Below, one piece after another: positions 1,546 to 32,185 of a stretch of 64,000 nucleotides of DNA. The notes under the pieces were generated by a model that ran no database searches, was not told the DNA's origin, and was given only the letters and a program-made list of their open reading frames with translations. The DNA comes from Hymenopellis radicata (taxonomy: Eukaryota > Basidiomycota > Agaricomycetes > Agaricales > Physalacriaceae). The translations under genes and the position numbers were made by a program. The stretch spans positions 62,001-126,000 of the forward strand of contig JADNRX010000114.1 of the NCBI GenBank assembly GCA_015501595.1. The letters are read 5' to 3'. Position 1 is the first letter of the stretch, and the number at the start of each line of letters is the position of its first letter.

Positions 1546-1830
1546 CGGCTAAAATTGGAACGAATGTAGCGCCACGTCGCCACAGCCTTGAGAAGATAAT
1601 TCCCTTGCTAGACAAGGGTTCTCAGTCGGATTATTGTCCCACTTTTCATGTTAAATCGTAAACATGTGCAAATACATCTCACAGCCCCTGTCTTTGCCAC
1701 TCTTAGTAGACTCTTACGCCCATCATCCAATGTGATTTCATTCGTCTGTGCGTGTAATTTCTAACCATCTTTGTTTCGTGTCGTCATTCAACATCTCTAG
1801 CCTCTCATCTTCCTGCATCAATTCAACATC

Positions 1831-2720: not shown

Positions 2721-3556
2721 GACACGTCACCATCAAAAAACGCTAAAACCACGTAGTAACAGATCACGATTGTACAGTGTGTACTTACCATTCCTTACCC
2801 TTCATACAATAACATTCTTTGCCTCTCAAATAAACGGTGTACTCGTAGCTGAAGGTCCTTACATCGTCATTTTCAATTGAGGTTCAGAGTCAGTCTGGCA
2901 AGGGCCCTGCCGACGCAGTCGGCTCCTCCCAAGTCCTAAAGGATTAGGAAAATGCGGAGTTTGTAGAAGAAAAAGACGCGATCACGCGATTCGCTGTCTT
3001 CGGGCAACCAGGCGGATTAGCTCGCTATTCTATCGCACCTAGAGACAACCAAGCCAGGTAGGACTCAACATCAGAGTCCGAGTCACACTCAAGACTGTGA
3101 GAGTCGAAGAGAACAAGCATCCCGTAGGGCGAGAGACCGAAGAGCGAAACCTGTATTGCCTGAACTCGGTACTGTCGAGTGTTTTGATGATAAAGGGGTT
3201 TATCAAACTCGACGACCACAACTCGCCCCATACCTCAAAGGTCGCGCATTCATTTAAGGAAGGAATCGAAAGTGGAAGAGCAAACCAACGAAGGTGGGTG
3301 GTCTATTTGGTTATTTCGGCACCTCTCGGCGCTTGGAGCCGCACCCGGCACGGTCCTTCTTTCAGCGTGCAATTTCTTCCTTGCAAAAGCGCCTTTGTGA
3401 CCTGGACGCTCAAAATCCCTGCGACAAAGGCTTCAATTAATTGCTTACAGCGTCCCGAATGATCTATTGCGACACTGGGTAATGGATACATAGTGCGATT
3501 GACGAGACGAGTCAAACCAGCCATCACGCTGATTCATGGCTTCCGAGCCGCAACGA
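2721..3556. other. Intergenic, contains an R1 edge fragment
   Basis: I found no gene here. At about 2,965-3,035 the motif GCGATCACGCGATTCGCT followed by GGCGGATTAG matches one edge of the R1 module seen at 9.4-11.1 kb. The ORFs at 3,025-3,530 have no recognisable family and no supporting context. Confidence 0.4.
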
Positions 3557-3562
3557 TATAAA
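3557..3562 (+). promoter_or_regulatory. TATA box of the F-box gene
   Basis: TATAAA lies 116 bp upstream of the F-box start codon. A likely 5' leader intron follows, with GTACGT at 3620 and TTTCCAG ending at 3669, just before the ATG at 3673. Confidence 0.5.
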
Positions 3563-3672
3563 TCTCTCTTTCGCACGACGTTTAAGGTTCCCTATCGACA
3601 CTTGCAATCTGCTTCCACGGTACGTATTTGCTTCCGACTTTCAAGATAACCAACTGACATTGTTTCCAGACG

Positions 3673-4962
3673 ATGTCTAGTTCCAAGATCTTCCTCCCCG
3701 ACTCGTTTCCTCAAGAAATAATCGACCTCATCATCGACTTTGTCAACACAGACCAAAAAGCCATGCGTCGCTCCTTCGCCTTGACGTCCTGCGCTGCCGT
3801 ATCCAGAAAGTTCAGGGCCCGCGCCCGGACATGCCTCTTTCATACGGTCACCTTTGACAGCCACTCTAGGACTGCCTCTCGACTATGCGCACTGCTAACA
3901 GATGACGATCACCTTCAACAGAGCGTCCGCGAAATGCGCTTTGACGGTCCTAAGGGTGGCACGACGGTATACCCGTGGTCAGACAAGTCCTTCCGGGATC
4001 TCCTACCTCAGCTCACTAACCTCACCCACCTCACGCTCTCTTCGTTCGACACTTCCAAGTTCCTCGCATGCTTTCCGGCTGACTCATTTCGCTTCGTCAG
4101 ATGCTTGCAATTGAACGGCTGCATCGTCCAGCTTGCGAATGTTCATCTACTACAGTTTATGGAAAGGTTCCCCGCTCTAAAATCACTCACACTCGGCAAA
4201 CGGTGCAAATATCCTGATCGTCCCGACCTGAAGAGATTGGAAGCGGAGACGGTGGCTGCTATCCCTTATCCCACTATCAAACGGCTTTCCGTCCTTGTCA
4301 AGCGCGAGACGGACGACTGGCGTCGCCTCTTCTCTAGCATCGTATTCCGTAAGCTAGAGCAACTGTCTGTCCCCGACAACTCAACCTGGGTGGAGTTGAA
4401 CGCCATCGCCAGCGTGGCGCCGCATTCCATCACCTCGCTTACCCTCCCATACACTCCGACGGCCTCGCAAGACTGGGATACGGAGACGGGTGAGTGATAT
4501 CGATCCTCGTCGATTCTTAACAATACTGATCTGGAACTCGTGTTAGGCCCTTCACATCCAATCGACATCCTCCTCCGAAAGATAGCGCACGCCACGGTCA
4601 CGTTTCCTACGCAGGAAGTGAGTATCACCCGCGGAAGGACCCCCTTTCCCACCTGGTGGGTCCATAAACTGGGCCAAAGCATGGATCATCTCCAGACTTT
4701 GAACATCATTGTCGACTTTGTTTCCCAAATGGACGAGTCCTATGGGGAATTCTACGATCCGGCGTTCTGGAGGACGTTTGACGTGGCGGTGTTGAGGAAT
4801 GTTCTTCTAGATTCTGTTGAGATCATCGTCAAATGCACGATCAACGGAGACGACAAGAACAAGGCTGACGTGACGCGGTTCTGCGAGATGGTCAAAAGAC
4901 ATTGCAGTGAGTTGGGCAAAGGTGGAGAGGAGAAATTTAAGATTGTACGAGATATTGCGTAG
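3673..4962 (+). CDS. F-box/LRR-type protein
   Basis: Predicted substrate adaptor of an SCF ubiquitin ligase. Residues 5-60 resemble a fungal F-box: LPDSFPQEIIDLIIDFV, then ALTSCAAVSRKFRARARTCL. The rest has leucine-rich spacing (LTNLTHLTLSSF, FPALKSLTLGK, SITSLTLPY), as in Agaricomycete F-box/LRR proteins. CDS is join(3673..4489,4547..4962), about 410 aa. The intron has GTGAGT at 4490 and TTAG ending at 4546, and skipping it removes the TGA at 4495. A second, leader intron is likely at 3620-3669. Such genes are strongly expanded in mushrooms, and the target cannot be inferred. The frame is intact, so this looks functional. Confidence 0.8.
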
Positions 4963-6006
4963 GGTTGTTCGTCACGTCTCCCGTAATATGGCCTTCCGTT
5001 TGAGTTGTATATCGAAGTGGCCTCTACGCTTAGGCAAATTTGAAAATGAACATCCAGATTGAAAACTGCCATCATCAACTGTCAAAGGAGAAAGCTCGCT
5101 CGAAGAAGCTAAGAACAGAATGAGTCAAATGGCATCCCGAACATCAATGAATTCTTGCCTTTCAATTGGTTCCTCTTCAAAATCGTCCCAAAAAGGAGAA
5201 GGACGTCTGCGCAGTGCGCCACATCTGCCAACATCACGAAGTTTCCGAAAAAGCTCATGCGCATCACCGTATTTCGTCAGGATGGGTGTGTTTCCCCAAC
5301 CATGACGATCCTGAGTGGGAGAAGAAATGTAAGACATAAACGAGCGCAAAGGCCGTCCAGAATTCCATCTTTGGTATCAGGCAATGATTACCTGGTACCA
5401 CGTTGACGGGATGCGAGGAACGTCGACCAGCGAAACCGTCGAGCGTCAACTTGTCATGGACTCGATGTATAGATATGGACTGGCAGTTCGGCGGATATCC
5501 TAATAGTCGGCGGGATGAGATTAGCAAGCTCACGATAGGTGCAGAAATGTCGGGATGACCGAAACACCTTCCAGAGAGCTTTTCACACTATACGCGAGAG
5601 GAAGGGGCCTGAAAGAGTGTTTTGGGTGATCGCAGCATGTAGTTTCTCTCTGCCAGCTGGGCACAAAACACTATTGGGTATTATCTGTAGCAACTCTGTA
5701 CACTCACAAGGGCTATTAGATACAAGCCCTTCCATGGGCGCGCTGCGTAGAGCGTCAGATAGACAGATGGAACTAATACAAGGTTCTCAAGCTGGTGGTC
5801 AGAAGAGAGAGGAAGTGAATTATGTAATCACAGCAGCAGCCGACGAATATCCGGACCGGAAAAAGACCTATGTACCAACACACCATACGCCGCGTATTCA
5901 TATGAACTTGAGTCTACATTTGTGCCAGTGATGTACATTCTACTGATTGTATGCTATGTTCCATAGGTATAAAATATCGTAAGAGAATACTTAATGCGTG
6001 CGTGTA
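4963..6006. other. Gap with a C-terminal gene fragment (5125-5533, minus) and unsupported ORFs
   Basis: On the minus strand at 5349-5125 an exon reads HGWGNTPILTKYGDAHELFR, continues to FEEEPIERQEFIDVRDAI and stops. The same ending, DEKPIEGGAFIDVRDAV, occurs on the plus strand near 13,790-13,840, so the two are homologous remnants of one unidentified gene. An upstream minus exon with HPVNVVPGNHCLIP (about 5,390-5,440) may belong to it. A 130 aa ORF at 5539-5931 (+) has no recognisable domain and I do not support it as a gene. Confidence 0.35.
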
Positions 6007-7162: not shown

Positions 7163-7546
7163 TGTACCGTTCGTGCACTCCCTGTGCACGAAACGGTAAC
7201 AATCCCTCTGTTCGGGATTGCCCAGTTAGGATTCCCCTTGTTCTCTCAGGAGACTTCCCTCTGATCTTATCCTTCTTGCACCCTCGTCTCAGCTCGGGTG
7301 CCTTGATGACCCTTTCCTCTTCATTTTCCTTCCCATTTGATTCCCTTAGTTTAGGAGACTCCTTTTCATTATAGTATTTAGTCTACATACAAGCCTCCTT
7401 TGTACAGTAGTTAGGAACCCCCACAATCGAGGCCTCCTTCTGCCTCTCTCTCTGTGGGATTCTCTCCGAAGCTCACTCCCTCTCCGTGATCAGTGGGTCC
7501 CGTGCGCATCGATACGTTCTTGCGCACGGCCGGACTCGGGTGCACA
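7163..7546 (+). repeat. Left LTR of the 1.7 kb element
   Basis: 384 bp. The first 40 bases form a strong hairpin (ACCGTT-CGTGCAC against GTGCACGAAACGGT), followed at once by CAATCCC..GGGATTG, so the start of the LTR carries two consecutive stem-loops. Confidence 0.9.
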
Positions 7547-8499: not shown

Positions 8500-8884
8500 T
8501 GTACCGTTCGTGCACTCCCTGTGCACGAAACGGTAACAATCCCTCTGTTCGGGATTGCCCAGTTAGGAGTTCCCCTTGTTCTCTCAGGAGACTTCCCTCT
8601 GATCTTATCCTTCTTGCACCCTCATCTCAGCTCGGGTGCCTTGATGACCCTTTCCTCTTCATTTTCCTTCCCATTTGATTCCCTTAGTTTAGGAGACTCC
8701 TTTTCATTATAGTATTTAGTCTACATACAAGCCTCCTTTGTACAGTAGTTAGGAACCCCCACAATCGAGGCCTCCTTCTGCCTCTCTCTCTGTGGGATTC
8801 TCTCCGAAGCTCACTCCCTCTCCGTGATCAGTGGGTCCCGTGCGCATCGATACGTTCTTGCGCACGGCCGGACTCGGGTGCACA
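8500..8884 (+). repeat. Right LTR of the 1.7 kb element
   Basis: 385 bp, almost identical to 7163-7546. Visible differences are GGAGTTCCCC for GGATTCCCC and CTCATCTC for CTCGTCTC. It is preceded by a G-rich polypurine tract. Confidence 0.9.
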
Positions 8885-9439
8885 GAACCTCGCGTGGCAT
8901 CTCTGGGTACAAGGTCCGCACGGGCGCCGCCGCCTTTGACAGCGGTCCGTGGAGTAGGTTGCGTCGTGAGAGGAGTTCATAAATGTTTTTGGCCAAGTTC
9001 TTGGATGAAGGCGGCGAGATGGATGGAATCTGGCTGGCGGATTTGTGATACTCGTCAAGGAGCCAGGCAAGGCGTTCCTGAGTATACTTCGGGACAGTGG
9101 TTGTCGTGGTAGAGGGAATGGGTAGTCGTGGAGTCACGGCCTTAGGCTCGTCGTGAAGGTTCGTCGCGTTCATTACTAGATTCCTCGTCATCGTCGGCGA
9201 TGTTTCGGGCGCATATATGCGTACCTTTCGATGCAATGTCGTACTGTTCAAAGGGCGAGGAAAGAACAAGGAGAGTGGGGCGCGCGGCGGGCAGAAAGGG
9301 ATGGATGGCGCACGGGAGAGACTGTGATGGTGGTGGTGGAAGGAAGAGAAGGAACTGCTACGTCACGGAAGCCAATGACGCGTCTTCTCGAACGCATGGC
9401 ACCACAGATCAGTGCTGTCGACGTACCCTCCACCCGAAG

Positions 9440-9830
9440 AGAATATTTGCACAGTAAAAATAAAAAAGACCGTGCGCGATTACGCGACTCGCTGATTAGG
9501 TACTAGATCGCCTCTGATGATCATTCCTCGGCGGATTAAGCCGCTACTCACACGAGGAGGTACCTATTGCGCCGGAACAGAGAGAGAGAGAGAAACAACT
9601 AACCTGAGATCCAGAGTGAAGGTTCGACAAGTAATAGTAGACAAGCATCCAGATAGGCAGAGACGAAGGTAGTTCATACCTGTAATGTATGAGCTTTCTA
9701 CTGCCAATGTGGTTTTCCATTTAAGCTTCAACTGCAGGGTTAGAGGGGGTATTTAACATCTCCAGACCTGTAAGGAGGCAAATCGGTACAGGAAGAAGTT
9801 GATCGGTCCCCTCTTACCGCAATGCGCGAC
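9440..9830 (-). repeat. R1 module, copy a
   Basis: About 390 bp. On the plus strand it opens with GACCGTGCGCGATTACGCGA, then CGGCGGATTAAGCCGCTACT, and ends near GGCAAATCGGTACAGG. It reads toward the start of paralog 1 when taken on the minus strand, and an R1-like module occupies the same relative position upstream of paralogs 2 and 3. On the minus strand it contains a conserved exon-like stretch that ends in CAG followed by GTATGA, a possible splice donor. Confidence 0.7.
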
Positions 9831-10073
9831 GTTAGGATGCTTTAGAGGGAACCACGAACGGTGCGCTATCCAGACTTATCATCAACAGGTATCCAGTAGC
9901 TCTACAGGCTGGGAGTCGGTGTCAGGAACTCACATAGTTTACGGCGCTTGTAGATTAACGCACCTCTCGTCAGACCACAGTCAGTAGTTCGGACAAAAGC
10001 GCACATTTCCGTCTGTGGCGTGTTACCTACGTAGCCCGTCACCTAAAGCATTTCAGTCTCAGAACCTCTGGGT

Positions 10074-10480
10074 CAGTCAAAACATCCATACCGATACTAC
10101 ACCGTGCAAAAATGGCAGAAAGAATCAAAAAGACCGTGCGCGGCGCTGATTAGGTACTAGATCGCCTCTGATGACCGTTCCTAGGGTGGATTAGGCCACT
10201 ACTCACACGAGGAGGTACCTATTGCCTGCGCCGAAACTGAAGTGAGAACGAAACGTGGAGGCGGCTTTAGAGTAAGAGTAGTCAAGCATCGAGGTAGACA
10301 GAGAAGAAGGAAGTTCATACCAGTATAGCTTGCACTTTGTACGGACAAGGTCGTTATGCACTTTCATCGCTACACTAGAGTAACAGGGTTAACGTTCATC
10401 GCCAGCTTCCGTCTACAGTCGGAGAAGGGCCCCGATGAGGGAACCCCTTACTGCAGGCGCGAGCGTTGAAGGGCGTGATG
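10074..10480 (-). repeat. R1 module, copy b
   Basis: A more divergent copy of the 9,440 module, opening near GACCGTGCGCGGCGCTGATT. The sequence just after it (10,455-10,625) recurs at 19,545-19,690, so a composite block was duplicated. Confidence 0.7.
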
Positions 10481-10739
10481 ATAGCGACTACCTTGGCACA
10501 TGCACATTGCACGCTGAAGTATCCGGCCTCCGTCCACGAAACTATTCGTAGCTGATAAGACAAGAATACGGATAGCACCCGGAAGGAACTGCAGGTAACG
10601 AACCAACTGGTGCGCAGCATGCACAGAGAACGTCATCATTTGCACACCGCCAGTTAACCTCTAAGCATCGAAAACATAGACGATGATAAGACAGACCTCG
10701 AATGCAAGAAAAAGAAGCATAATAGCTAAAACAAGACGA

Positions 10740-11112
10740 GTACTTGGACACAAAAAAATACCATGCGCGATTACGCGACTCGCTGATTAGGTACCTACCA
10801 CTAATGACCGTTCCTAGGGTGGATTTGGCCACTACTCACACGAGGAGATACCTATGGCGCCGGAACAGAGAGAGAGAAACAAACTAACCTGAGATCTACA
10901 GCGAAGGTTCGACGAGTAACAGTAGGAAAGCATCCAGATAGACAGAGACGAAGGTAGTTCATACCTGTAATGTATGAACTTTGTACTGCCAACGTCGTTT
11001 TCCGTTTAAGCTTCGACTGCAGGGTTAGAGGGGGTACTTGACATGTCCAGACCTGTAAGGAGGCAAATCGGTACAGGAAGAAGTTGATCGATCCCCTCCT
11101 TACCGCAATGCT
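10740..11112 (-). repeat. R1 module, copy c
   Basis: Close to copies a and d (GCGCGATTACGCGACTCGCT, then GGAGGCAAATCGGTACAGG). Copies a, b and c form a tandem series with a period of about 650 bp. Confidence 0.75.
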
Positions 11113-11250
11113 CGGTGGCGCACGAGGATGTTTACGTCCTACATGGTTGTCAAGTTAGATTCAAAACTTGACCCCATCGAGTGGTACTTACCTGCATTCA
11201 CCAGCGCCGAGAGCGTATGTAACGGGCCATCAACTGAACCTTCACCATCT
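11112..11250 (-). pseudogene. Fragment of the small secreted protein gene
   Basis: GGTGGCGCACGAGGATGTTT and the following bases match the plus strand of 54,190-54,250, the exon 2/intron 2/exon 3 border of the secreted-protein gene. Only this border region is recognisable, so it is a truncated duplicate. Confidence 0.5.
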
Positions 11251-11639
11251 TAGGCGCCGGGTTCATGCGACTGGTAAACCCCGCCTCGCTTCTTCACACA
11301 GATATCACAAACACACAGCGGACAGGACGAGAATGGGAGTCTCCCGACCATGATGACCTGATGGTCAATTTGGAGAAGAAAACGCAAGAACCTGAAACAA
11401 ACGAGCCAGTGAAGGCGTCCAAGATTGAACCCGAGTGTATCAATGCGGCAACAGATCAGGAAGGGAGACGCGTGAGGCGCGTCTCTGTGATTGTATGTGT
11501 TTGTCAGGAGCATTAGACACGATTCCGTCCTGTACTTGCACCAGACTTGCACCATCGTTAAGCACGGCCCCATCGTGATTCGGTCCACGCAATTTTAGGA
11601 CTGTCATACGCAAATCGAGCCCTTGCATTGGCGACGACG

Positions 11640-11815
11640 ATGTTTATCCGGTAACAGCTATACTTGGGGAGGACAAGGAGCGTTATCTCGTAGAATGGGA
11701 CGGGACCGACCCAAAGACCGGAGAGCCCTGACCGCCGAGCTGGGTGGGGAAAGACGAGGTGTCGAGGGACTCGATCGTGCAGTGGGGTGCGTCCATTAAC
11801 ACAGTCCATTTCGAA
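11640..11815 (+). pseudogene. Chromodomain-like fragment
   Basis: The plus strand reads VTAILGEDKERYLVEWDGTD, then PKTGEP, a stop, then PPSWVGKDEVSRDSIVQWG. This is the chromodomain pattern (V..IL......YLV.W.G......TWEP). The single stop replaces the expected W. A second fragment of the same gene is at 19,400-19,545 on the minus strand. The preceding 11,250-11,600 is the reverse complement of 20,310-20,520, so both remnants come from one gene or element. Chromodomains occur in chromatin proteins and in some retrotransposon integrases; too little is left to decide. Confidence 0.5.
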
Positions 11816-11999
11816 AGGTCCTGACGGCTACGTTAGCCGGACGAGCGGGATCCAGCGTTGGAGGCAAAAAAGCGTACGGGGGTGGTCAAGTTGAAGCCTA
11901 CGAAGATACACGATGATATTCTGCTTGTGATACGTGGCGTGATAGGTATATACATTTTGGTTACCATCTTTCCATTTTGCTCTACTGAGATTTTTCTCT

Positions 12000-13860
12000 A
12001 GGAAACACCCGGGTGGAGGAAAAAGCAGGAGGAGACAGCGGAAGAGTCGCGAGACGAAGGAACGAGACAGACGGAGGCGAAGCATCCGAGGCCGACGCGT
12101 GGGCTTTCAAGTCGTTTTCGGCAGAGCGCGCCTCCTCTTACCACCATCATGTCCATCGCCCCGGTCACGTCTGCTGCTCCATCCGTACGGCTCGGTTTTC
12201 CTTGCCAATGATGGACTGTAACCAACCGGTGCGTCTCCCAGTTTCTGGTTGTCTCCATCTCTCATTCTTTTCAAAACAGCCGCCTCAATGGACTAGAGCG
12301 GCGTGGCGAGAAGGTGGTAGCGGCTGTGGGTCTGGAATTGCATTCCCAATATGTGTCCCTACCTTTTTATCGCGGCGGTAGTCTCAGTTCGAAAAGCAGG
12401 GCGCTCCGCAAACTCGTTCTATGTTGACGCGAAGCTCTAACGGGAGTAGACGGCATCGGCCCTCCCAAATTATCCCCTCACTGTGACTAGCATCGTGCCT
12501 CAAGCTCCTAAGTTCGACTTGAAAGAGCGGAGGAGATGGTAGGAATTCTATTAAGACTGGTACGTCTTATTGCCCCTTCTTTTGCGGCGATGGATTCATT
12601 ATTAGCGCAGCAATGCCCGCCCTCCACTTTGTCGTCCACCTTCCCCCAGTTGTCGTATTCGACTTGCATACGACTGCGAGGAATAGTTGCCATGATGTAC
12701 ATCGAGAGGCTGCCCATTCGGTTCTCGTTCTCATCTTGGACTGCGCAGGGCACTCACATCGGTGACTTGACGTCTCCAATCGATATTTCCCTCCTGCGGA
12801 CATGCTACCGTCTAGTCAAGGGGTCCTGTTGGCGCGTTTGACCTCGATCATTCCGAATGTTAACGTCCTCACCATCACCCGTCTGAGTCCCTAAACCCAA
12901 ATCTGTTGCGCCGCACTCGCGGAAGCCTTCCGCCGACTCCCACCTCTCTCCTTCTTGAACCCCATGGTGGCCGATTCCAACATTACAGACGAGACCAGCG
13001 TGGCGTAATGCCTCACGCGTGTGACAAGGTAGGTAGGTAGGTAGGTGCTTATCAAGACGGCGATGGCATCTATACGGGAGTACTGTACTGGCGCTACTAG
13101 AAGCAGGAAAGGAAGCTGGCGAGAAGAAGTCTCACGATTGAGATAGTGCGAGATGTGGACGGGCGCTATGGTTCGGAAAATGGTGTTGTTGGGAAGGGAG
13201 AGACGATGACCGAGTGGCATGCCTGGCGCCCCTTTTTGTAGCGCCAGGCGCTGGCAGAGGATCCTAGCATGGAGGCAATCCTTGCGACGAAAACGACAAA
13301 CTACCAGACGTGGATACCCTTCCAATCCTTCTGCTGGATACACTCTATGTGTAGACTCTCGTCTCGAAGCTGTTCTTATCTACGGACGCGTACGAACTTC
13401 CTTCTCGTGCGCGCGACATGTATACCGTAACGTGTAAGACTGCCGCGGATGACGAAAAGGTGTTTGGACGATGGATGGGTGGTACATTGAGTTGGCAAAG
13501 AAGGATGTTATCGCTGCGGTTAGGAAGGAGCTCATATTTTCCAGGTACTATCGGCTGTTGGAATAGACTCTCGTTGCATGATAACGACCGTCCTTGGTGG
13601 TGATTGTTGATATCTTCCGATTCGATTTTGGACGCGCTGGTTTGTGTCTTCTCCCAAGCATCAGTATTATCGTGGACGGGAAGAACGGGCATCCTGACCA
13701 GATATGGTGATGTCCATTAGCTGTTGCTTCGCTATCCAGTGTTTGCGTTGCGCCGACGTCCTTTGCTTCTTTGAAGAGCTCGATGTTGATGAGAAACCAA
13801 TTGAAGGGGGAGCATTCATTGATGTTCGAGATGCCGTTTCTATTGAATAGCGTGGCGCTA
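12000..13860 (+). pseudogene. Unrecognised degraded gene region
   Basis: Coding-like stretches appear in changing frames: MPALHFVVHLPPVVVFDL with SVLVLILDCAGHSHR (about 12,613-12,770), IIPNVNVLTITRLSP (about 12,845-12,890), and a C-terminus DEKPIEGGAFIDVRDAV (about 13,790-13,840) shared with the minus-strand fragment at 5.1-5.3 kb. The middle block faintly resembles leucine-rich F-box proteins. Stops interrupt all frames and I cannot name a family. Confidence 0.3.
13027..13046. repeat. AGGT microsatellite
   Basis: About five AGGT units in a row inside the degraded region. Confidence 0.9.
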
Positions 13861-19545: not shown

Positions 19546-19737
19546 CGCGAGCGTTAAAGGGCGTGCTGATAGCGACTACCTTGGCACATGCACATTGCAC
19601 GCTGGAGTATCTGGCCTCCGTCCACGAAACTATTCGTAGCTGATAAGACAAGAATAAGGATAGCACCCGCGGAAGGAACTGCAGGTAACGAACCGACTTG
19701 CGAAAAAATGTAAACAAGACATGTACTTGAACACAAA

Positions 19738-22679: not shown

Positions 22680-23075
22680 AAACATCCATCAAAAATACCA
22701 TGCATGCGCGATTCGCACTGGTAAGGCCCATGAATTAATTCCTCGGACAACCATTAGGGCGGATTAAGCCGCTATTCAGCCGCGGATGGTACCTAGTGCG
22801 CGAAGGGCCTGCGTAAGGCAAGCCGTTATTCCACAGCCAATCACGAGTTGACAAGGTGGAGGGAAGGAAGGAAGGAGGTGTATTCCTCAGCTGGGTACCG
22901 AAGGCACTGCTGAGGTTAATACTGGAAAATGGCATATAGATATATGCTCATACCTGTATTGCTCGTGTCTTGTACTGACAAAGTCGGTCTGTGGATTTGT
23001 TGTACTTTGAGGGTAAGAGGGGTAAGATGTGTGAGGGAGAAAGTATTCGATCAGCCTGTGATCTCCTTACCACAA
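22680..23075 (-). repeat. R1 module, copy e
   Basis: Divergent copy: CATGCATGCGCGATTCGCAC, then GGGCGGATTAAGCCGCTATT. Together with copy f at 31,905 it formed a tandem pair about 530 bp apart before the 8.7 kb element inserted between them. Confidence 0.7.
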
Positions 23076-23154
23076 GGAGACTTGTGGTTCATCGTAGCCA
23101 GTGATGTAGATGTTTAATTGGTAGGCGGTGGTCGTTCCGGATGCTGTGGATCAG

Positions 23155-23480
23155 TGTGATACGATGGAGTATTGGAATCGTGGGAAGGTAGATTAGTAAT
23201 CCTTCCCATATCCGTGTTTGTACGTGTCACAGTAACTAGCTTTTGAATTACCATCTTGTTTCTCGTTTCTCTCCCTACGGCGGACCCCATGTCCTATGTT
23301 GTAACTCGATAACCGACTCGTCAGGCCCGCTGAGCACCCGTGTTAACGGCTCCCCGAGTGCGGGTCAAACACTCCCTTTCTCAGGATTACAGAGGGGCTA
23401 TGACGCGAGCCCGACGCGTCAACACACTTATTCAAGGTTGACTCCTCTGGCGAGAAGTCCCGAACTGTGCTCGATTCACA
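23155..23480 (+). repeat. Left LTR of the 8.7 kb element
   Basis: 326 bp, TG..CA ends. It contains the hairpin TGGGAAGG..CCTTCCCA near 23,178. Read by eye it has no difference from 31,529-31,854. Confidence 0.93.
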
Positions 23481-23481
23481 G

Positions 23482-23499
23482 TGGTGGGGACACCCAGAA
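23482..23499 (+). promoter_or_regulatory. Candidate primer binding site of the 8.7 kb element
   Basis: TGGTGGGGACACCC begins one base after the LTR. It would pair with a tRNA 3' end of the form GGGTGTCCCCACCA. The tRNA is not identified. Confidence 0.55.
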
Positions 23500-23538
23500 C
23501 TTCACCAAACCGGTGGAGTCAACCTTACTTGTCCTCGA

Positions 23539-23748
23539 TGGCCGCTCATAGCGCCGCCGGACCTTCATATGGTGGCCGCTCATAGCGCCGCTGGACCTCA
23601 ACAGTCGTCGTCCTTAATCATCCATTACACTGTTCAAATCCTCCAGAACGTTGTAGACCGCTCTGTTTGGTCCCCGCGTGTCGATCGGCATATTATGGAT
23701 CTCTCTTCCACCAACGAGCTGTCCCAGGTGGCTGCTCATAGCGCCGCC
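23539..23748 (+). repeat. Hairpin copies 1-3
   Basis: Copies at 23,539-23,556, 23,571-23,592 and 23,727-23,748. Core GGC-N-GCT-CAT-AGC-GCC, with bulge C, C and T. Outer pairs are T.G, then GTGGC/GCCGC and GGTGGC/GCCGCC. Copies 2 and 3 lie in a roughly 150 bp duplicated unit (CATCCTCCAGAAC and TCCCCGCG in both) whose flanks have diverged more than the hairpin. Confidence 0.85.
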
Positions 23749-24588
23749 GGACCTCAACCCATCCTTCATAATCATTCTTCATGCTGTTCACATCCTCCAG
23801 AACATTTCTCACCGTGTTTTGTCCCCGCGGTCCAAGGATTACCAAGGAAGTGTCACCAGCAAGTTTCCACTTACATTATTGAGCGGCTCGACAATCGCTT
23901 TTCCGAATTGCTCTCCGACCATGACAAGGGTAACACGAAGTGCACCTTGCTCGTGTTCGACCCCAACCCAGCGCTTCAGGCTCGAAAAGCCCAAAGGTGG
24001 CCGCTTCCGTCGCCCACGACTTTCTCACTCCGAGAAACAGCCAGCGGCAGCACAGTCGCGTTTTCCGCTGCGACATTCATCCCAACCATTGTTTCGATCC
24101 GTGGCCCACTCCACCAACATTTCCTATACCGCTGCGGTCAGGGCCGTCTTGTGAATCATGTCCATATCCATCGCGTTCATTCTTCCTCGTGTCAACTCGG
24201 TTGATTCAGAGACTTTCATCTCCTTTATCGTAGCCGTCGGGATCGTCATGACTTACAGTGTCGACTTCTGGCTACCGAGTGCACATGAACGGTTCACTGA
24301 CCCCGTCCAAGGATTGCTGCCGAGGAAATGGACGTCAACGTCGAGGAGCTCCCTCCTCCATCGCATATTCCGCGTAAGCCCTGTCAAAACAGGCAGCGTC
24401 TTGCCATGGACATCGTCGTTGATTTGGGCGCCCGGCATCGAACCGCGTTACGTCTCGCCGCAGCTTCTCACCACCCTTTCGACGTCCGCGAATCCAAAGC
24501 GAATATCATCGTTAAGATGACTTCGTCTCGCCCCGTTCCACGACTATGCTTGCCCTCCGCCCACCTCGAGGACCACGAAACCTCAAGA

Positions 24589-24647
24589 AGGAGCTGCTCA
24601 TAGCGCTCCTCTCGTCAAAGAAGGGATGGCTGCTCATAGCGCCGTCC
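24589..24647 (+). repeat. Hairpin copies 4-5
   Basis: Copy 4 (24,589-24,610) has the fully paired outer stem AGGAGC/GCTCCT, so the third pair is A-T where nearly all others have G-C. Copy 5 (24,624-24,647) has GGATGGC/GCCGTCC with one T.G pair. Start-to-start spacing is 35 bp. Confidence 0.88.
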
Positions 24648-26307
24648 ATTCAGAGACTGATGGCAGGATTTCGTCGGTAAAGGACTCAGCCGGGATCCTC
24701 CTCAATATCGGGTAGCACTTTGCGCTCTACGACAAAGATATCAGCATTACTGTCAACCAGTCCCGTAATTACCAGCTTCTCAAAGATGAAGACCCACTTG
24801 CGGAATTCGGAGCAGACGGCGGGTACTCACGAGGCCTTTTCTCACTAGCAAAGCATGTATACGGGTGGCTTAGTTCATTAGATGTGGCCGTCGAACGATT
24901 TCTGGAATGACATGTCGTCCGCCATTGATGACCGAATTGATTATGAAAGGATGAAAATTTGGTGCCAGAACTTCAAGATCAGACTGCGGAATTGCATAGG
25001 ACAGAGAGTTTAGTCGATTGGCAAGGGTAATAACGACTTAGGCGATTGGGGTAATCTAGTTCAGGTTGTCATGCGAATTTTTAGAAGTCTTCCAACAAGA
25101 ATTGGGTTCGAAATCTTCCAAGGAGCCCCCGTTTGTGCTCGACTCGCACGACGAGTTCATGAAGCACGATCGCAGTCAGATTGTCCTTGATGTCGGAACA
25201 ACGCCTCGCGGGGATGTGTTAGTCGGGGTACTCGCATATGTCGCGGGCAGCAACATTCTCCCGTTATTCTGCGCGAACTGTCGATACAAAACTCCTTGGC
25301 TTCACGTTACTCAGCTGGGTTGGCAGGAGGGTAGATATCACAGTTCATCAGTCATACCTTACCCGTTGAAGAAGATGGAGAGTGCAGACATCCGAGGAGC
25401 TGCATACCCTCGCTGTGTCACATCTTCCACTCTTCCCGTTCAGAGGTGCAATCTCTGGGTAGTCTTCTGTTACATACTATCAGGGTGGTTACGCGTTCTG
25501 AGGGTGTAACCCGTTCCATATTCTGATACGTGCCGCACACTCGATATCAGCCCGGCTCACGTAGGATTGGGACAACCTTGATGCAGCGGCGGTGACGATG
25601 GCGGCACCAGTAGATGCGACTTCGCCACGATCGGACGGGTTCCAGAGGGGTAGGATTTCGTCAGGCTGGGATAGTCACAATGCGATATTTGGTGTCCTCG
25701 TATGCACGGGACTGCAATCCTAGAGGCCCGAGCACAGATATCGCCGGCGTCTCCTTTATCGTTGATCTTCGACATTTTCGGCAACTCCGCCTAATGCGCC
25801 TCACATTGTCTCTGTCTGTGACTCCGGATTTCCCGACGTCGTTCCGTCATGATGTAAAGCGTGTCGGACATCATCCTTGAGTCGCTCTCGCCGCATGGAC
25901 AAGACGACGGCGAACAGTGTGTCAGCTAGGCTGCGACCAATAACACAGGTGCTCGAGACTACCGGATTCACCCGCGGCGATGGATCTCTGTCTGCTGTAT
26001 AGTGTCAACTCCTGATATACGCTGTACCAGGACATGACTGTTCCTTCTGAGACCCGGACAATTACTCGAACGTACCGGCATCGATTTCATCCTTGACCTC
26101 GTTCTTGTTGTCTACGGCATCGTCCTCGTCCTTATAGACATCCATTAAAGCAAGGAGAGATAGTGGGTTTCTTGAAAGACTCAGACAGATACTGCCAGAT
26201 TCGGAGGAGGAGGCTGAGGAGTGGCGAAGGTCGGCGAGGGTTCTGGGAGAAGTTGTGAGCGTGAGGTTGAAGGAGGAAAAGGAGGATTAAGACAAGGTTG
26301 GAAAGAG

Positions 26308-26472
26308 TCGGGCCGCTGATAGCGCCTGAAGTGAGACGGAGCAGATGAACATAGAGGAACAGAATCGGGCAGCTGATAGCGCCCAGAGCAGCAACTTGAG
26401 GAAGTAGGAACACAAGCGGGCTGCTCATAGCGCCCAGCTGAGAGCAGATATTGTGGCTGCTGATAGCGCCGC
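26308..26472 (+). repeat. Hairpin copies 6-9
   Basis: Copies at 26,308 (TCGGGC/GCCTGA), 26,367 (GGGC/GCCC, bulge A), 26,415 (AGC-GGGC/GCCC-A-GCT, with an extra unpaired A on the 3' side) and 26,453 (GTGGC/GCCGC). Three of the four have the triloop GAT instead of CAT. Confidence 0.85.
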
Positions 26473-26569
26473 GGAAGAAAATATAGGAAGGATTTGCTAG
26501 AGTCCTGAGGGAGATAGTAGAGGCGAGATTAGCTAGGGAAAGGAAGGAACAGGAAAAAGGAAGAAGACC

Positions 26570-26731
26570 GGGCTGCTCATAGCGCCCATGATACGAAAGT
26601 ACTAGCGGGCTGCTCATAGCGCCCAGCATGAAGAGAGGGCCACGGCTGCTCATAGCGCCGTGCAAGAAGAGAAGCGGGCTGCTCATAGCGCCCAGCTAGA
26701 CGGAGAAATTGCGGCTGCTCATAGCGCCGCA
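26570..26731 (+). repeat. Hairpin copies 10-14, the densest group
   Basis: Copies start at 26,570, 26,605, 26,641, 26,673 and 26,710, a 32-37 bp periodicity. Outer stems are GGGC/GCCC, GCGGGC/GCCC-A-GC, CACGGC/GCCGTG (six perfect pairs), AGCGGGC/GCCC-A-GCT and TGCGGC/GCCGCA. The fourth outer pair therefore switches between G-C and C-G with compensation, while the core and CAT triloop do not change. Confidence 0.9.
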
Positions 26732-27350
26732 GAGTTCGAGAGAGACAATGACAAATAGGACTTTTGGCATAGGAGCAACACCTTCTCGTAATCAAACCGT
26801 CAGTCAGCCTTGGAGGGGATGGTGTGTAGTAACGGAAAGGCCAGACTGGCGGTACATTATCATAAACTCGTCGGGGTACTATGGTGCATGCTTGCTCACC
26901 GGCGTCGTTGGGACGCCTCGGCACACCCACCATTCTGCGTCCCGTAGGCGCCAGCACGAGATCTCACCCCCTTCTACCTTATTTGCCATGGTTTTCCTCT
27001 CGTCGTTGTTCTTTGTTCTTCCCGCTCTTGCTCAGTGCTTTTCCCAGTGGTGGCGACCATCATAGTGATGATGATCATAAATTCATTGCGCCTGGTCCCG
27101 ACGATGTCAAGAGCCCTTGTCCTGGATTGAACACTCTTGCCAACCATGGTCATCTTCCTCGCGATGGCAAGAAGATCACTATCCCGATCATGATGAAGGC
27201 GGGGAACGATGGCTTCAACGTCCAGGCCGGGGTGATCCTCCTCGCGGCCAGAGTCAGTCTTATGACCTCGACATACGCTTGAGCTGCCTTCAGCTTGGAG
27301 GACGTCAGACTTCACGGCAACATTGAGCACAACGCACATCCGTCTCCCGC

Positions 27351-27725
27351 ATGGACGAAGCGCTCGGGAGTGACTGGGATTTCAACGAAGAGATCTATTC
27401 CGTCCTAGCCAACTCGAACCCAGGCTCGGATAATTACAATGCATCATCTGCTGGGACAGTTCAGCACGAGCGCCTTCAACAGTCGTTAGAGGATAACAAT
27501 CAGACGCATGACACACTCAGCGAGATGTTGATCCAGACCAGGGAGAGCGCGCTCTATTTGAGTGTTATGGGCAATGCAACAACCGGGGAGGCGCCGAAGA
27601 AATTCGTCGATGTCTTCTTTCGTGATTCAAATGATGTGGTGATCTCTGAGATTTGGGCGCCAGAGCTGAAGGAGGAAAGGGAGGATAAAATGAGGGTACG
27701 AATCGGGTTTCTGATAGTGCCCTGA
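27351..27725 (+). other. 124 aa ORF inside the 8.7 kb element
   Basis: The ORF begins MDEALGSDWDFNEEIYSVLA and is the cleanest open frame in the interior, but it has no recognisable domain and runs into hairpin copy 15. It may be captured host coding sequence; I do not assert a gene. Confidence 0.25.
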
Positions 27726-27926
27726 ATGAGGACAACAAGGAAAGAGTGCACACGCGGGCTGCTCATAGCGCCTAGCGAAGAGCGGATACCGTGGCTGCTC
27801 ATAGCACCGCGGGATAAATCATGATTAGCACGAAGGAAATGGTGAAGATAGAGGAGGACCGGGCTGCTCATAGCGCCCAGGACCAGATGAAGATCGAAGA
27901 AGACCATGGCTGCTCATAGCGCCGTG
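27703..27926 (+). repeat. Hairpin copies 15-19
   Basis: Copy 15 (27,703-27,725) is degenerate (loop region TTCTGATAGT). Copies 16-19 start at 27,753 (GCGGGC/GCCT-A-GC), 27,789 (CCGTGGC/ACCGCGG, one C.A mismatch), 27,859 (CCGGGC/GCCC-A-GG) and 27,905 (CATGGC/GCCGTG). Confidence 0.85.
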
Positions 27927-28060
27927 CAAGAGGAGACGCTCCAGGATCCGCAACACGCTTGTTGACATATGCGCTCTGCCCAGCCTTGGCTTAGACATTC
28001 TTCGTATACTCAACTTCATCCGCTGCGCTCTCGACATCCGTTAGGAATCCTTAACCACTC
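27920..28060 (-). repeat. Internal duplicated module, copy 1 (partner 30,043-30,180)
   Basis: Follows hairpin copy 19 directly. The minus-strand reading VESAADEVEYTKNV, stop, AKAGQSAYVNKRVADPGAS matches VKSAAVAAEYTKDIEVKAG..YVADSGAS after copy 25. Homology of reading frames on the minus strand hints at an old coding sequence that was duplicated with its hairpins. A shorter third relative follows copy 22 at about 28,990. Confidence 0.6.
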
Positions 28061-28895
28061 ATTCCACCCATGTCTCTTTCTGTAATGATGACAGTGCCCC
28101 AAGCACCCCTTCAACATGTAACCGCCGTCTTCATCTCCGGCCAGTCAGCCTTTGGGGGGCGCGTGTAGTAGCATTCAGGAAACGGAAAGGTCAGACTGGC
28201 TGTCGATTACTGCAGATAGAACGCGATGACAATCTTCCACCCCGTCAATCCGATATGTTACAAGTCTTATCCGGATCACAGGTCCTATCATCATTCAAGG
28301 TGTTAGCAGGTTCCACGCAGCCAAGGATGACCATGACGACTCACTGGTTCCGAGGATGGGCGTATCGCATGCCCTATCTAAGAACGTTCGAACAAGCTAC
28401 TTTCCGCATCCGGCCCGTTCAACTGCCAGGCTATCATTCGCAACCATCGATTGATCTTTCTAGATGTTCCCGACCTTGTCGATGAGGACTATCAACGTTC
28501 AGCAGCGATGGACATTTCGGCAAGATGGAACATTGGATCTGGTTGTACGAAGCAAGTGACGGGATCGGGAGCAGGAAGAGTCCGCCTGTGGTGGACACAG
28601 TGAAAGACGCAACTTGAACACCTTGGTGGAGCCCTAAAGCGAATCGTTACACCATCCCAACACGGTCAGCGGAGAATGGTAATGACCGGCAAAAGTAACA
28701 CGAGTTTCGCCGAGGACGCAACTTGTACTACGAGATTGACTGGGTCCCCGCTGACTAGGCCTCCTCCGTAGGTCAGGAGGTATACAAGCACGATGGAATC
28801 GTCGAATGCGCGCGGTAATAAGAGTTTCAGAGGATAACTTGAGGAAAGCTCGGAGAATGTGGCTCTGGATACACGGGACAATGATGCAGCAGAAT

Positions 28896-28998
28896 TGGGC
28901 AGCTAATAGCGCCCATGATTCGGAGCATGGAACGAAAGTAGCGGGCTGCTCATAGCGCCCAGCGTGAGGAAAGGATCACGGCTGCTCATAGCGCCGTG
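28896..28998 (+). repeat. Hairpin copies 20-22
   Basis: Starts at 28,896 (TGGGC/GCCCA, bulge A, triloop AAT), 28,941 (GCGGGC/GCCC-A-GC) and 28,977 (CACGGC/GCCGTG). The order GGGC type followed by CACGGC type repeats that of other groups. Confidence 0.88.
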
Positions 28999-29158
28999 TA
29001 AGAGAAGAAGCATTAGTACCCGGATCCTCTGACACACTGTCATCATCACACTGCTCAATGCGATTCCAAGCTTGTACAACGTTTCCAACCGTGCTATCAT
29101 GTCCTCGAGGTCTCAGAATTTATAGGAACGACTACTGCTAACCAACTACTGCGAAGAG

Positions 29159-29521
29159 ATGCACTTCCCTGGCGGCCCATGCTCCTACATCGCAGAGCCT
29201 GAGGAACGAAGCCTTGCCCTGGTATCATTCTCTGTGGGCCGAAATCAGCTAGGGAGCGTCGCATATGAGACCATATACTCTGCCTGGTCGGAAATGCTAG
29301 GCGACGCGGAGAGATGGGGCGGAGTAAGGCTAAAAACTGTGGTGGCAGCTAATAGCACCGCCGGTATATCAGCAGCGGCAGATCGACGTGCTTACTTCTT
29401 TCTGTCTGCTCTATTCTTCGATACTTTCAAGCGGAACGACTCTGAGACGGCCTGGTTTCACAAGCCACTTCTCTATCTGAGGGCTCAGTGTCATCTTCGT
29501 TGTCCGAAACAGACATTTTGA
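29159..29521 (+). other. 120 aa ORF inside the 8.7 kb element
   Basis: Begins MHFPGGPCSYIAEPEERSLA. No family recognised. Hairpin copy 23 lies inside it, where it is read as VAANSTAG. Unsupported as a gene. Confidence 0.2.
29341..29361 (+). repeat. Hairpin copy 23
   Basis: GTGGC/ACCGC outer stem, bulge A, triloop AAT. It shares the C.A mismatch of copy 17, so these two may be related by duplication. Confidence 0.7.
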
Positions 29522-29995
29522 CTACCCAGGACATCACCTTCCTTCTCGTCATCCTCATTCATATTATCGTCGCTTCCCTCATCTTCATTTGTATCGATCT
29601 GCCCCTATATTTCCAGGATGGTCTGGGACATATTTCGTACTTCCAGGCTTGTTTGTGGTATGCGAGTATGAATGCAGCCAACGCCTCAGAAACCTTGTCG
29701 TGTCCATACGCTCGAGCAAGATTCCGAGTTCTGTTGGATTCAAGTGACAGACTTACTGCTAAGAGCGTCCGCTGAAATTCCGTTTGTCGTCTGCGGCCCA
29801 CCAGATATCAATTCCAGCCTTGTCAGGACTGGTACGACTGCCGTCAACGAGTCCTATGAATTGACAGTTTGCGGATAAAGCACGACGATGCTGGATCGCC
29901 AGTCCGAGAAGGAGAAGGGTTACATCCCGGTAGCTCACAACGAGTCACAACTATAAAGTCCCAGCGCGACACATAGGAGATTGGGAGAGATAATC

Positions 29996-30043
29996 GGGCT
30001 GCTCATAGCGCCCAGAGTGGACCACGGCTGCTCATAGCGCCGT
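29996..30043 (+). repeat. Hairpin copies 24-25
   Basis: Starts at 29,996 (GGGC/GCCC) and 30,024 (ACGGC/GCCGT), again a GGGC type followed by a CGGC type. Confidence 0.88.
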
Positions 30044-30180
30044 ACAGGAGAAGAAGCACCAGAATCCGCCACATACTCCTTTGTTAGGAACATACTCCGT
30101 CCAGCCTTGACTTCAATATCCTTCGTGTACTCGGCCGCAACCGCTGCGCTCTTAACAGCCGCTGGGAATCCTTGTCTGAG
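30043..30180 (-). repeat. Internal duplicated module, copy 2
   Basis: Partner of 27,920-28,060. Shared blocks include GTCCAGCCTTGACTT against GCCCAGCCTTGGCTT and GGGAATCCTTG against AGGAATCCTTA. Here the minus frame is open. Confidence 0.6.
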
Positions 30181-30713
30181 ATTTTCCACGGATGCAGCAA
30201 GAGGATCAATCAACGTTTTCGATGGTAGTCTCGCTTTTTCCGGCCGAGGCCTTCTTCGAGCCAGCGATGTTACCTAGCACGTCGTCGTGCATCGTCACTG
30301 TCATTATCGTCATGAGCTCGTGCTCAGTGCTGTACATACTGAGCTCATCTCTAACTATCTCGTGTTGTTGCTGCCGTTGTGTGCGCGTTGGCATCACCGT
30401 CGCCGTCACTACCGTCGTGGTTGTGCTCGTCGCTGTCATGCTTGCAGTCGTCGGTTTGATCCTCGATACTGTTTGTGGTATTCTCATCGCTGCCGGTATC
30501 GATGCAGTATGCTACCGTAGATGCTGCCACGCTCGCTGCCTCAGCGCTATACCGTATCGTGCTTATTGCTATCGTGGTCGTGGATGTATCCGTTTCTGCT
30601 CGTTTCCGTCGTAGCTATGGTTGCACGAATCGCAGCCGGTTGTTAACAGTACCACACGTGACGCGGATATGCTCTGAGGGACAAGAGGAGCTGGACGCGA
30701 GTCAGAGGGAAGG

Positions 30714-30824
30714 AGCGGGCAGCTCATAGCGCCCAGCTACGCACAGATGAGGTGGAGGAAGATAAACGGGCTGCTTATAGCGCCCGAAATAAGGATGAGT
30801 CCGTGGCAGCTCATAGCGCCGCGG
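30714..30824 (+). repeat. Hairpin copies 26-28
   Basis: Starts at 30,714 (AGCGGGC/GCCC-A-GCT, bulge A), 30,767 (CGGGC/GCCCG, triloop TAT, no extra A) and 30,801 (CCGTGGC/GCCGCGG, seven pairs with one T.G, bulge A). Confidence 0.9.
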
Positions 30825-31125
30825 AGGTTGATACCAAGGGAGACTTGCAGAACTGACAATGGAGCCCAACTGATCTGGGGGGCGCAATTAAGGTAGTCGT
30901 GCATCTGCAACATTCCTACACGTTCACTCCCCAAACTCTACCTCTACTTTGCCATCGCCGTGCTGCTCCGCTGCTCACCGTATAGGTCATGACGCTCCCA
31001 TCCATTTATCCACCACCACCCCCGCCACCACCTAGACTTCCATTATCGTCAGCCACTGTTAGGATGTTCATATACCACGTGAGGTCTGGGGGGCCACTGT
31101 TCATTTGAACTGCATTTTTGTAAAT

Positions 31126-31163
31126 CAGAAGTGAATCTGTGTGGGCATTGGATTCATTTCTGA
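31126..31163 (+). repeat. 13 bp stem-loop near the 3' end of the 8.7 kb element
   Basis: TCAGAAGTGAATC pairs with GATTCATTTCTGA (one G.T) around a 12-base loop. Runs of six G (about 31,087, 31,166, 31,175) surround it. A further stem GAGCATTT/AAATGCTC lies at about 31,396-31,424. Confidence 0.7.
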
Positions 31164-31528
31164 TGTGGGGGGCTGTAGGGGGGTACCAGGTATCAGGGAT
31201 GGCGAGTGCAAGGAGTCATCCTTCTGGCAACTGGCATGGCAAACACAGTGAGCCATCATTACACTACTGAAGGCAGGGACAGCGCACAGCAAACCATATT
31301 ATACGCCTGGATCACTGTCCGTTGGCAGCATCATGCCGGAGTGATTGTCACTACGAGGTAGTCCAAATAGCACATTGGACTGCAATCGACTCTCGAGCAT
31401 TTCAATTTTGAAATCAAATGCTCAAAACTCTCGCAAGATTTTTGACTCAGAAGGCCAAATTTCAATGCGAGTTTTCAAATCAATTAACCCAGGCCATTCG
31501 AACCTCCCTTGCCACGATTGGGGGGCAC

Positions 31529-31854
31529 TGTGATACGATGGAGTATTGGAATCGTGGGAAGGTAGATTAGTAATCCTTCCCATATCCGTGTTTGTACGTG
31601 TCACAGTAACTAGCTTTTGAATTACCATCTTGTTTCTCGTTTCTCTCCCTACGGCGGACCCCATGTCCTATGTTGTAACTCGATAACCGACTCGTCAGGC
31701 CCGCTGAGCACCCGTGTTAACGGCTCCCCGAGTGCGGGTCAAACACTCCCTTTCTCAGGATTACAGAGGGGCTATGACGCGAGCCCGACGCGTCAACACA
31801 CTTATTCAAGGTTGACTCCTCTGGCGAGAAGTCCCGAACTGTGCTCGATTCACA
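31529..31854 (+). repeat. Right LTR of the 8.7 kb element
   Basis: 326 bp copy of the left LTR, preceded by the polypurine tract ATTGGGGGGCAC and followed by the target copy ATCAG. Confidence 0.93.
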
Positions 31855-31904
31855 ATCAGCGTGAACCGCCGTCTGCGGTGCGTCATCTAGATTATCATCA
31901 GCCT

Positions 31905-32185
31905 TGGTCAAAATACCCACACCGATGCTGCAAGGGCAGAATAAATCAAAAGGCCGACGCGACTCGATGTTCCTAAAGGGTGATTAAGCGGCTACTCACG
32001 AGGAGGTAGTACCGGAACAGTAAGTAGTAGGTTAGGCCGCAGTACCTGAGATCCAGAGTGGAGGGTTGACCAGTCACCAGTGGAAGATAATAGACATTGT
32101 ACTATGAACTTTCTAGTGGCAATATAGCTTTCGGCTTGAGCCTCTCCAATTTCAGGAGGTTCGTTGATAGCGACAAATGGATGGA
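31905..32185 (-). repeat. R1 module, copy f
   Basis: Divergent copy that starts near ACCCACACCGATGCTGCAAG (copy b has CATACCGATACTACACCGTG) and contains AAGCGGCTACTCACGAGGAG. It lies 50 bp after the 8.7 kb insertion. Confidence 0.6.

Follow-up and report, generated by a model that had tools for sequence, protein, structure and literature searches.

An LTR element with repeated hairpins

The window analysed here is a 64,000-nucleotide stretch of the genome of the basidiomycete Hymenopellis radicata (contig JADNRX010000114.1, positions 62,001 to 126,000; G000:C158:62001-126000, C-numbers being contig labels in one 75.5-Mb genome). It contains a long terminal repeat (LTR) element at 23155-31854 that carries, between its LTRs, 27 +-strand hairpins in which the GCT-NAT-AGC core is intact. 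In RNA these take the form outer stem-N-GCU-NAU-AGC-outer stem. An earlier note on this DNA had described 28 same-strand copies of GGC-N-GCT-NAT-AGC-GCC inside one LTR element. The repeated hairpins, their single strand and their confinement between the LTRs were borne out, but only 24 copies are exact and 3 are variants; a degraded further match at 27706, with 3 mismatches, is one route to a count of 28. The outer GGC/GCC, which the earlier note had held invariant except for one copy altered on both sides, stands in the 24 exact copies; the copy at 24592 has AGC/GCT outer ends, and ACC replaces GCC at 27793 and 29344. All of the compensated outer stems that it quoted are present (GGGC/GCCC, ACGGC/GCCGT, GCGGC/GCCGC, AGGAGC/GCTCCT, GGATGGC/GCCGTCC, and CCGTGGC/GCCGCGG at 30800-30825); as a qualification, 11 of the 27 hairpins have only 4 outer pairs, mostly in a CGGGC..GCCCA class in which C stands opposite A at the next position. 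The sequence GCTNATAGC occurs 28 times in the window against 1.45 expected, a number reached in 0 of 100 shuffles; one of these, at 19565, is a bare copy outside the element with no outer stem after it. The covariance models of Rfam 15 gave no match up to E = 1 in window positions 23000-32000.

The hairpins were placed by the core pattern in the sequence together with covariance-model matches. Three lie in the leader: hairpin 1 (23539-23556), about 60 nt past the 5' LTR, hairpin 2 (23570-23593), 34 nt after hairpin 1, and hairpin 3 (23727-23748). Hairpin 4 (24589-24610; AGGAGC/GCTCCT) has the same arms as an in-frame hairpin at element position 1184 of the coding relative C686, and is followed after 36 nt by hairpin 5 (24624-24647; GGATGGC/GCCGTCC). 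Hairpins 6 (26308-26329) and 7 (26367-26384) precede hairpin 8 (26418-26435), which is paired with hairpin 9 (26451-26474) at 36 nt. After hairpin 10 (26570-26587) comes a run spaced 36, 33, and 36 nt, formed by hairpins 11 (26607-26624), 12 (26641-26662; CACGGC/GCCGTG), 13 (26676-26693), and 14 (26709-26732; TTGCGGC/GCCGCAG). Hairpins 15 (27756-27773) and 16 (27789-27812; CCGTGGC/ACCGCGG, one C-A mismatch) form a further pair at 36 nt, followed by hairpins 17 (27861-27878), 18 (27905-27926; CATGGC/GCCGTG), and 19 (28896-28915; TGGGC/GCCCA). The remaining hairpins comprise the pair of 20 (28943-28960) and 21 (28977-28998) at 36 nt, hairpin 22 (29340-29363), with one C-A mismatch, the pair of 23 (29996-30013) and 24 (30024-30043; ACGGC/GCCGT) at 29 nt, hairpin 25 (30717-30734), and the pair of 26 (30767-30786; CGGGC/GCCCG) and 27 (30800-30825; TCCGTGGC/GCCGCGGA) at 36 nt.

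The element is bounded by two 326-bp LTRs with TG...CA ends (5' LTR, 23155-23480; 3' LTR, 31529-31854; both +) that show 0 differences and have relatives genome-wide, and by identical copies of the target-site duplication ATCAG at 23150-23154 and 31855-31859. A probable primer binding site, TGGTGGGGACACCCAGAA, is located at 23482-23499 (+), as judged by its position directly after the 5' LTR and its TGG start, and a probable plus-strand priming tract, GATTGGGGGGCAC, is located at 31516-31528 (+), directly upstream of the 3' LTR. The interior holds scattered, decayed remnants of gag and reverse transcriptase (RT) between 24539 and 28332 (+; element coordinates 1383-2032, 3009-3317, and 4988-5176) that are 42-54% identical in amino acids to C686 proteins, with stops in some and with shifting frames; the longest frame is 266 codons, stop to stop. 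Hairpin-bearing segments are repeated inside the element. With its LTRs and target duplication intact and its coding capacity reduced to these remnants, the element is in this respect like a large retrotransposon derivative (LARD). The identical LTRs and the target duplication indicate that this copy, which lacks long open reading frames (ORFs), is a recent insertion, and from identical LTRs without long frames we infer that it was moved by the proteins of an autonomous partner.

Distribution, covariation and conservation of the hairpins

The exact 14-letter core was found at 98 listed places genome-wide, counted from a match list in which exact matches come first, and 95 of these are inside five LTR elements that are related by their LTRs: those of the window (24), C224 (19), C824 (18), C686 (17), and C707 (17). 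These elements bear 19-27 hairpins each. The scatter of cores outside such elements that the earlier note had held to speak against a structural RNA was not seen: the other three cores lie singly in C687, inside 90 bases that are 82% identical to the C686 gag region, and in C797 and C1339, each of which has a copy of a further repeat (99.4% between the two over 315 bases) with a single hairpin and its own compensated outer stem, CTGGC/GCCAG. The hairpins of this repeat are located at L020:4220 (G000:C797:12220) and L021:5700 (G000:C1339:10700); the L020 hairpin is flanked by long direct repeats about 6.2 kb apart, and another LTR-like element may have borrowed one hairpin. When one mismatch was allowed, the core was found at 122 places in the genome, compared with 30 for the reversed pattern. 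A covariance model trained on 80 distinct hairpins and searched against the window and nine loci (150 kb), with rough E-values, returned 116 matches, training copies included, all within the five elements and 116/116 in the sense orientation of the element. A search for pairs of cores separated by 5-35 nt, with CAU only as the first loop, matched no viral contig and one bacterial metagenome-assembled genome, a match judged to be due to chance; no related locus was found in viral contigs.

The significance of covariation was assessed from shuffles, in which the inner three pairs are uninformative, being invariant by search design. Across the 80 distinct hairpins, paired cells reached 91.7% compared with 78.7% in shuffles, double-changed cells 108 compared with 44.0, and the covariation score 0.284 compared with 0.084 (0/500 shuffles in each case), with slid structures scoring 0.113 at most; the numbers of pairs changed on both sides (188/500) and of further pair types (487/500) were not above shuffles. 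Outer pair 4 was Watson-Crick or G-U in 81 of 83 distinct arm pairs (41.1 in shuffles), including 34 G-U against 1 A-C, outer pair 5 was paired in 50 (21.6 in shuffles), and outer pair 6 in 55 (35.4 in shuffles); past pair 6 there was no clear excess. Because the hairpin copies are related, 106 hairpins were reduced to 68 locus clusters by masked, register-checked flanks, with one copy per locus. Pairs 3-6 of these clusters gave 216 paired positions compared with 140.3 (maximum 166) in whole-arm shuffles (0/5000), and one hairpin per distinct 5' arm (21 arms) gave 68 compared with 45.4 (0/5000). The masked version replaced a first flank clustering that had lumped 93/106 hairpins, and 94/99 of the sister C-type hairpins described below, through their neighbouring hairpins; in that weak test, with 6 and 4 clusters, the observed sum was reached in 184 and 16 of 3000 shuffles. 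The significance test on covariation that the earlier note had called for, made here with shuffles, supports outer pairs that covary.

The window element and its relatives C224 and C824 contain no frame above 266 codons and only decayed gag/RT pieces, with RT pieces present more than once in C824 and C224, and they carry 27, 21, and 20 hairpins, respectively. These three ORF-less copies were compared in collinear local alignments, giving six non-independent comparisons, the hairpins being delimited each time in the third copy to keep their choice independent of the two compared. Identity was 0.946-0.975 in the hairpins, 0.827-0.874 in 40-base flanks, and 0.838-0.906 in the rest. The aligned share was 72-88% of mapped hairpin bases compared with 17-42% of the rest, a comparison that favours the hairpins, as these had to map collinearly (17-19 of 20-27). 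This scheme removed the bias of an earlier local comparison, in which the hairpins had been chosen in one of the compared copies, and the local alignments replaced a global three-way MAFFT alignment that forced unrelated stretches together (rest 47-64%, hairpins 79-83%). Since identity in the hairpins is above that of their flanks, we take the gap as a sign that purifying selection acts on the hairpins in RNA that lacks long frames. From the covariation, which survives de-duplication, the restriction to the sense strand and a conservation that is independent of coding, it therefore follows, as far as sequence can tell, that the hairpins are selected sense-strand RNA structures and not peptide repeats, in agreement with the structural RNA under selection that the earlier note had proposed.

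Coding relatives, sister hairpins and other repeats

The C686 and C707 elements are about 13 kb long; their open frames, not joined into a single continuous one, reach 1481 and 1263 codons, respectively. Pfam matches above cut-off in C686 were RVT_1, RT_RNaseH_2, RT_RNaseH, Integrase_H2C2, SH3_Tf2-1, and Chromo, with rve below its cut-off; the order of RT, RNase H, and integrase followed by a chromodomain places it among the Ty3/gypsy chromoviruses. The RT of C707 is 95% identical to that of C686, the element covered by the Pfam scan. The Gag frame of C686 has one CCHC motif (zinc knuckle). Of its 19 hairpins, 17 are in open frames and 2 in the leader. All 17 in-frame hairpins share the reading frame GCN GCT NAT AGC GCC (A-A-x-S-A) and sit in linkers outside the Pfam-assigned domains. 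Their inner codons are GCT in 17/17 and AGC in 17/17, and the bulged third base varies (T in 13/17); over the same frames, counted stop to stop with the hairpins included, GCT makes up 109 of 341 Ala codons and AGC 65 of 342 Ser codons. Just past the integrase frame of C686, at L014:5222-5305 (G000:C686:25222-25305), the covariance model gave two weakly matching neighbouring hairpins whose loop is shortened (GATGGC-T-GCTATAGC-GCCGTC and GTGGC-C-GCTATAGC-GCCGC). An extra long frame downstream of the integrase, at L014:6897-8918 (G000:C686:26897-28918), is RS/SPSPRR-rich and has no Pfam match and three in-frame hairpins; the gypsy element of C464, about 13 kb long, likewise has an extra long frame downstream of its integrase (element positions 9430-12734). 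No GCTN3AGC was found in a 500-base linker of C551, a coding relative (RT 74% identical).

Because they have the LTR of the window element in common, LTR relatives lacking the full core were also examined; C88, C519, C1351, C1157, and the rest of C113 stayed outside this sequence reading. Ten such relatives, two pairs of which are alike by their hairpin lists, contain 7-22 GCTN3AGC each compared with 1.1-3.9 expected, and their longest frame is 339 codons; eight that were compared with C686 proteins showed no similarity at E 1e-3. Their hairpins, termed C type, have the form outer stem-NNN-AGCU-UNU-AGCU-C-outer stem, for example GGCACGA TGC AGCU UGU AGCU C UCGUGCC. The genome has 81 exact matches to the pattern GATNNAGCTTNTAGCTCTC and none to its reversed control; each match shares its contig with an LTR relative and its strand with the LTR of that relative. 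A shorter C-type pattern, with 117 places compared with 11 for its control and scattered single matches on other contigs, was set aside for this longer one. C-type outer stems covary as well (41 locus clusters, 177 paired compared with 135.9, 0/5000 whole-arm shuffles), and the hairpins are above their flanks in 7 of 9 third-copy comparisons. The elements at G000:C1162:133189-147559 and C567:74629-84086 have matching hairpin lists and lengths that differ by about 4.9 kb, as if one held an insert.

Further forms were found in other relatives. C113, whose RT is 84% identical to that of C686 and whose upstream 4 kb contain no long frame resembling gag, has four C-architecture hairpins in the two linkers read, likewise in the A-x-S frame and with AGU, GAU, AAU, and ACU loops. 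C464 carries GGAGCU-UCC-AGCUCC in frame, and this 15-mer has 7 genomic occurrences, in C464, C1157, and C1351, against none for the reversed control. These sister types came to light in a scan for perfect 5-bp stems, which the A/B type, being bulged, escaped. The architecture shared by all comprises a bulge on the 5' side (N, or NNN facing C), a constant inner stem that ends in GCU/AGC, and a three-base loop, which is NAU in the window type and mostly UNU, and UCC, in the sister lineages. The hairpin thus appears to belong to one clade, with a loop and bulge that differ by lineage, with overlap. Spacing is a further common feature: 60 of 192 neighbours are 28-38 nt apart compared with 3.4 expected for random placement (window type, 25/65 with 1.63 expected; C686/C707, 8/36 with 0.51; C type in eight elements, 27/91 with 1.27), an excess of which some is due to inheritance, both from one related copy to another and via repeated segments. 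A distance of 36 nt is the most frequent in the window type and one of 32 nt in the C type.

The window also contains other repeats. Large inverted repeats of up to 709 bases (95%), with more arms in a broken series, lie at 1-1315/14103-15505 and 33866-38855/55903-59085 and are apparently unrelated to the hairpin element. Two nearly identical stretches of about 370 bases in direct orientation, 1.3 kb apart at 7163-7531 and 8500-8869, may represent the ends of a short LTR element.

Possible functions of the hairpins

The hairpins may act as cis-acting recognition elements along the genomic RNA of this Ty3/gypsy clade, read by a protein of the element, probably Gag, for encapsidation; we put the probability of this reading at about 0.5. 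The protein-binding or packaging role that the earlier note had suggested is plausible in the same sense. A Gag with a single CCHC zinc knuckle would bind the inner stem, loop, and bulge of many hairpins at once, and its multiple contacts would select the RNA for virus-like particles, so that hairpins from the leader to the 3' end would add up to an encapsidation signal. ORF-less elements would keep the hairpins as a means of using the proteins of a coding partner in trans, and lineage-biased loops and bulges would set which RNA goes with which Gag. More tentatively, the hairpins may constitute an address code, in which a bulged triloop hairpin peculiar to each lineage fits the Gag of that lineage, coding elements tag their RNA over its whole length inside the coding sequence, and ORF-less elements persist by keeping the code.

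Several observations weigh against an encapsidation signal of this kind. In yeast Ty3, nt 429-4979 are dispensable when proteins are supplied in trans, according to the parts of PMC4974528 consulted; this relative thus has no need of dispersed internal signals, which makes it unlikely that they are general to gypsy elements. Outer pair 5 has 28 C-A and 4 A-C juxtapositions (32) and no G-U, mainly because the CGGGC...GCCCA class has a shorter stem; C is opposite A there in 26/68 loci, so that this class is short-stemmed. Only 18-19 of the 27 hairpins of the window element have a collinear counterpart in the other ORF-less copies, and this requirement favours conserved copies, while 2 of the 9 C-type comparisons are reversed (C1138/C818/C1162; hairpins 0.909 and 0.890, flanks 0.916 and 0.919). 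Loops overlap between lineages, as C113 combines AGU, GAU, AAU, and ACU with the C architecture and a CAU site is found in C-type elements, and the C-type elements yielded no complete coding partner. All evidence comes from one genome. The motif AA[HDNY]SA was present in 0 of the 120 listed pol homologues (470 at E <= 0.001 in the protein collection), which were compared as proteins only, so that their DNA may yet carry hairpins, and a protein search with the hairpin-rich linker gave no relative. The best-scoring pol homologue with an organism name was from Mycena chlorophos; a looser A-x-S pattern did not exceed a swapped control (7 compared with 14).

The main rival to a Gag-read signal is a host factor that would read the hairpins for nuclear export, stability, P-body or translation control, or protection of the long ORF-less transcript from decay. 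The same conservation, sense-strand bias, and covariation would be expected of it, hairpins are found in leader and body alike, and long non-coding transcripts of ORF-less elements would need export and protection. However, the site of a host factor need not vary by lineage, yet loops and bulges vary within one host, which speaks against it, and outside these elements the genome has almost no exact cores; we consider this explanation rather unlikely. A function in reverse transcription or dimerisation, in which the hairpins would serve as pausing or strand-transfer sites or self-complementary AGCU stems would pair two genomic RNAs, seems improbable. The inner AGCU of the C type is indeed self-complementary, and hairpin segments are repeated in the window element, as RT pieces are in C824 and C224, but NAU and UNU loops are not self-complementary and allow no simple loop-loop dimer, and fixed loop bases and a bulge seem unneeded for a pause site.

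Short palindromic mobile inserts spreading inside these elements would explain a compact palindrome that stands in frame in C686 and varies in number among related elements. Rickettsia palindromic elements and mitochondrial byp elements are such short palindromes, which act as mobile inserts in genes. Unlike them, the hairpins described here have covarying stems and a single orientation and are nearly confined to one element clade. Spread to unrelated genes was not found among the 98 listed cores, three of which lie outside the five LTR elements, in the gag-like stretch of C687 and in one repeat, and there is little spread through the 75.5-Mb genome. A different core occupies the same kind of place in sister lineages, and the hairpins are conserved in ORF-less elements, so that such inserts are a quite improbable explanation. 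A double-stranded DNA site, bound by a chromatin or integration factor or extruded as a cruciform, is likewise quite improbable: the sequence is palindromic and GC-rich, but it has a single orientation and a one-sided bulge, and pair 4 favours G-U over A-C (34 against 1; the reverse at pair 5, 0 against 32, reflects one shorter-stem class). Selection at the protein level for the peptide repeat A-A-x-S-A, with an incidental hairpin, can hardly be credited, even though 17/17 in-frame C686 hairpins use one reading frame. This coding-repeat reading was rejected because the hairpins are present in the leader and conserved in ORF-less copies; moreover, the codon positions that pair do not change, whereas the bulged third base does, and the outer bases covary.

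The nearest working analogy for a Gag-read signal is the dispersed packaging signals of single-stranded RNA viruses (MS2, STNV) and of HBV pregenomic RNA, described in the parts of PMC6281560 consulted as many short stem-loops sharing a recognition feature; the window clade, similarly, has 19-27 stem-loops per element with a shared core. Unlike those signals, the present hairpins belong to LTR retrotransposons, have a near-uniform core and openly covarying outer stems, are often paired, are kept in relatives without long frames, and are known from sequence alone. C686 resembles Ty3/gypsy elements in its RT, RNase H, integrase zinc-binding, and chromodomain matches. The packaging sequences of yeast Ty3 are not precisely defined, and unlike here, no repeated hairpin family is mentioned for Ty3, in the parts of PMC4974528 and PMC11381356 consulted. 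Among LARDs and terminal-repeat retrotransposons in miniature, Cassandra has LTR-LTR super-hairpins, as far as the available sources describe it, and not a small covarying hairpin repeated some 20 times; the window element, compared with these groups, still holds the remnants of a decayed gypsy element. No description of such hairpins was found in the open-licence literature as far as it was accessible, which does not show their absence from print.

The dependence of ORF-less elements on coding ones is an assumption in the parts of PMC7215508 consulted. A candidate RNA-selection signal is now visible in sequence, with about 20 hairpins per RNA that covary, differ by lineage, and are retained amid divergence. 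The selection of RNA for particles and the dependence of ORF-less elements thereby become directly testable, and, should Gag prove to read them, the hairpins would offer a natural tag set for packaging RNA into particles.

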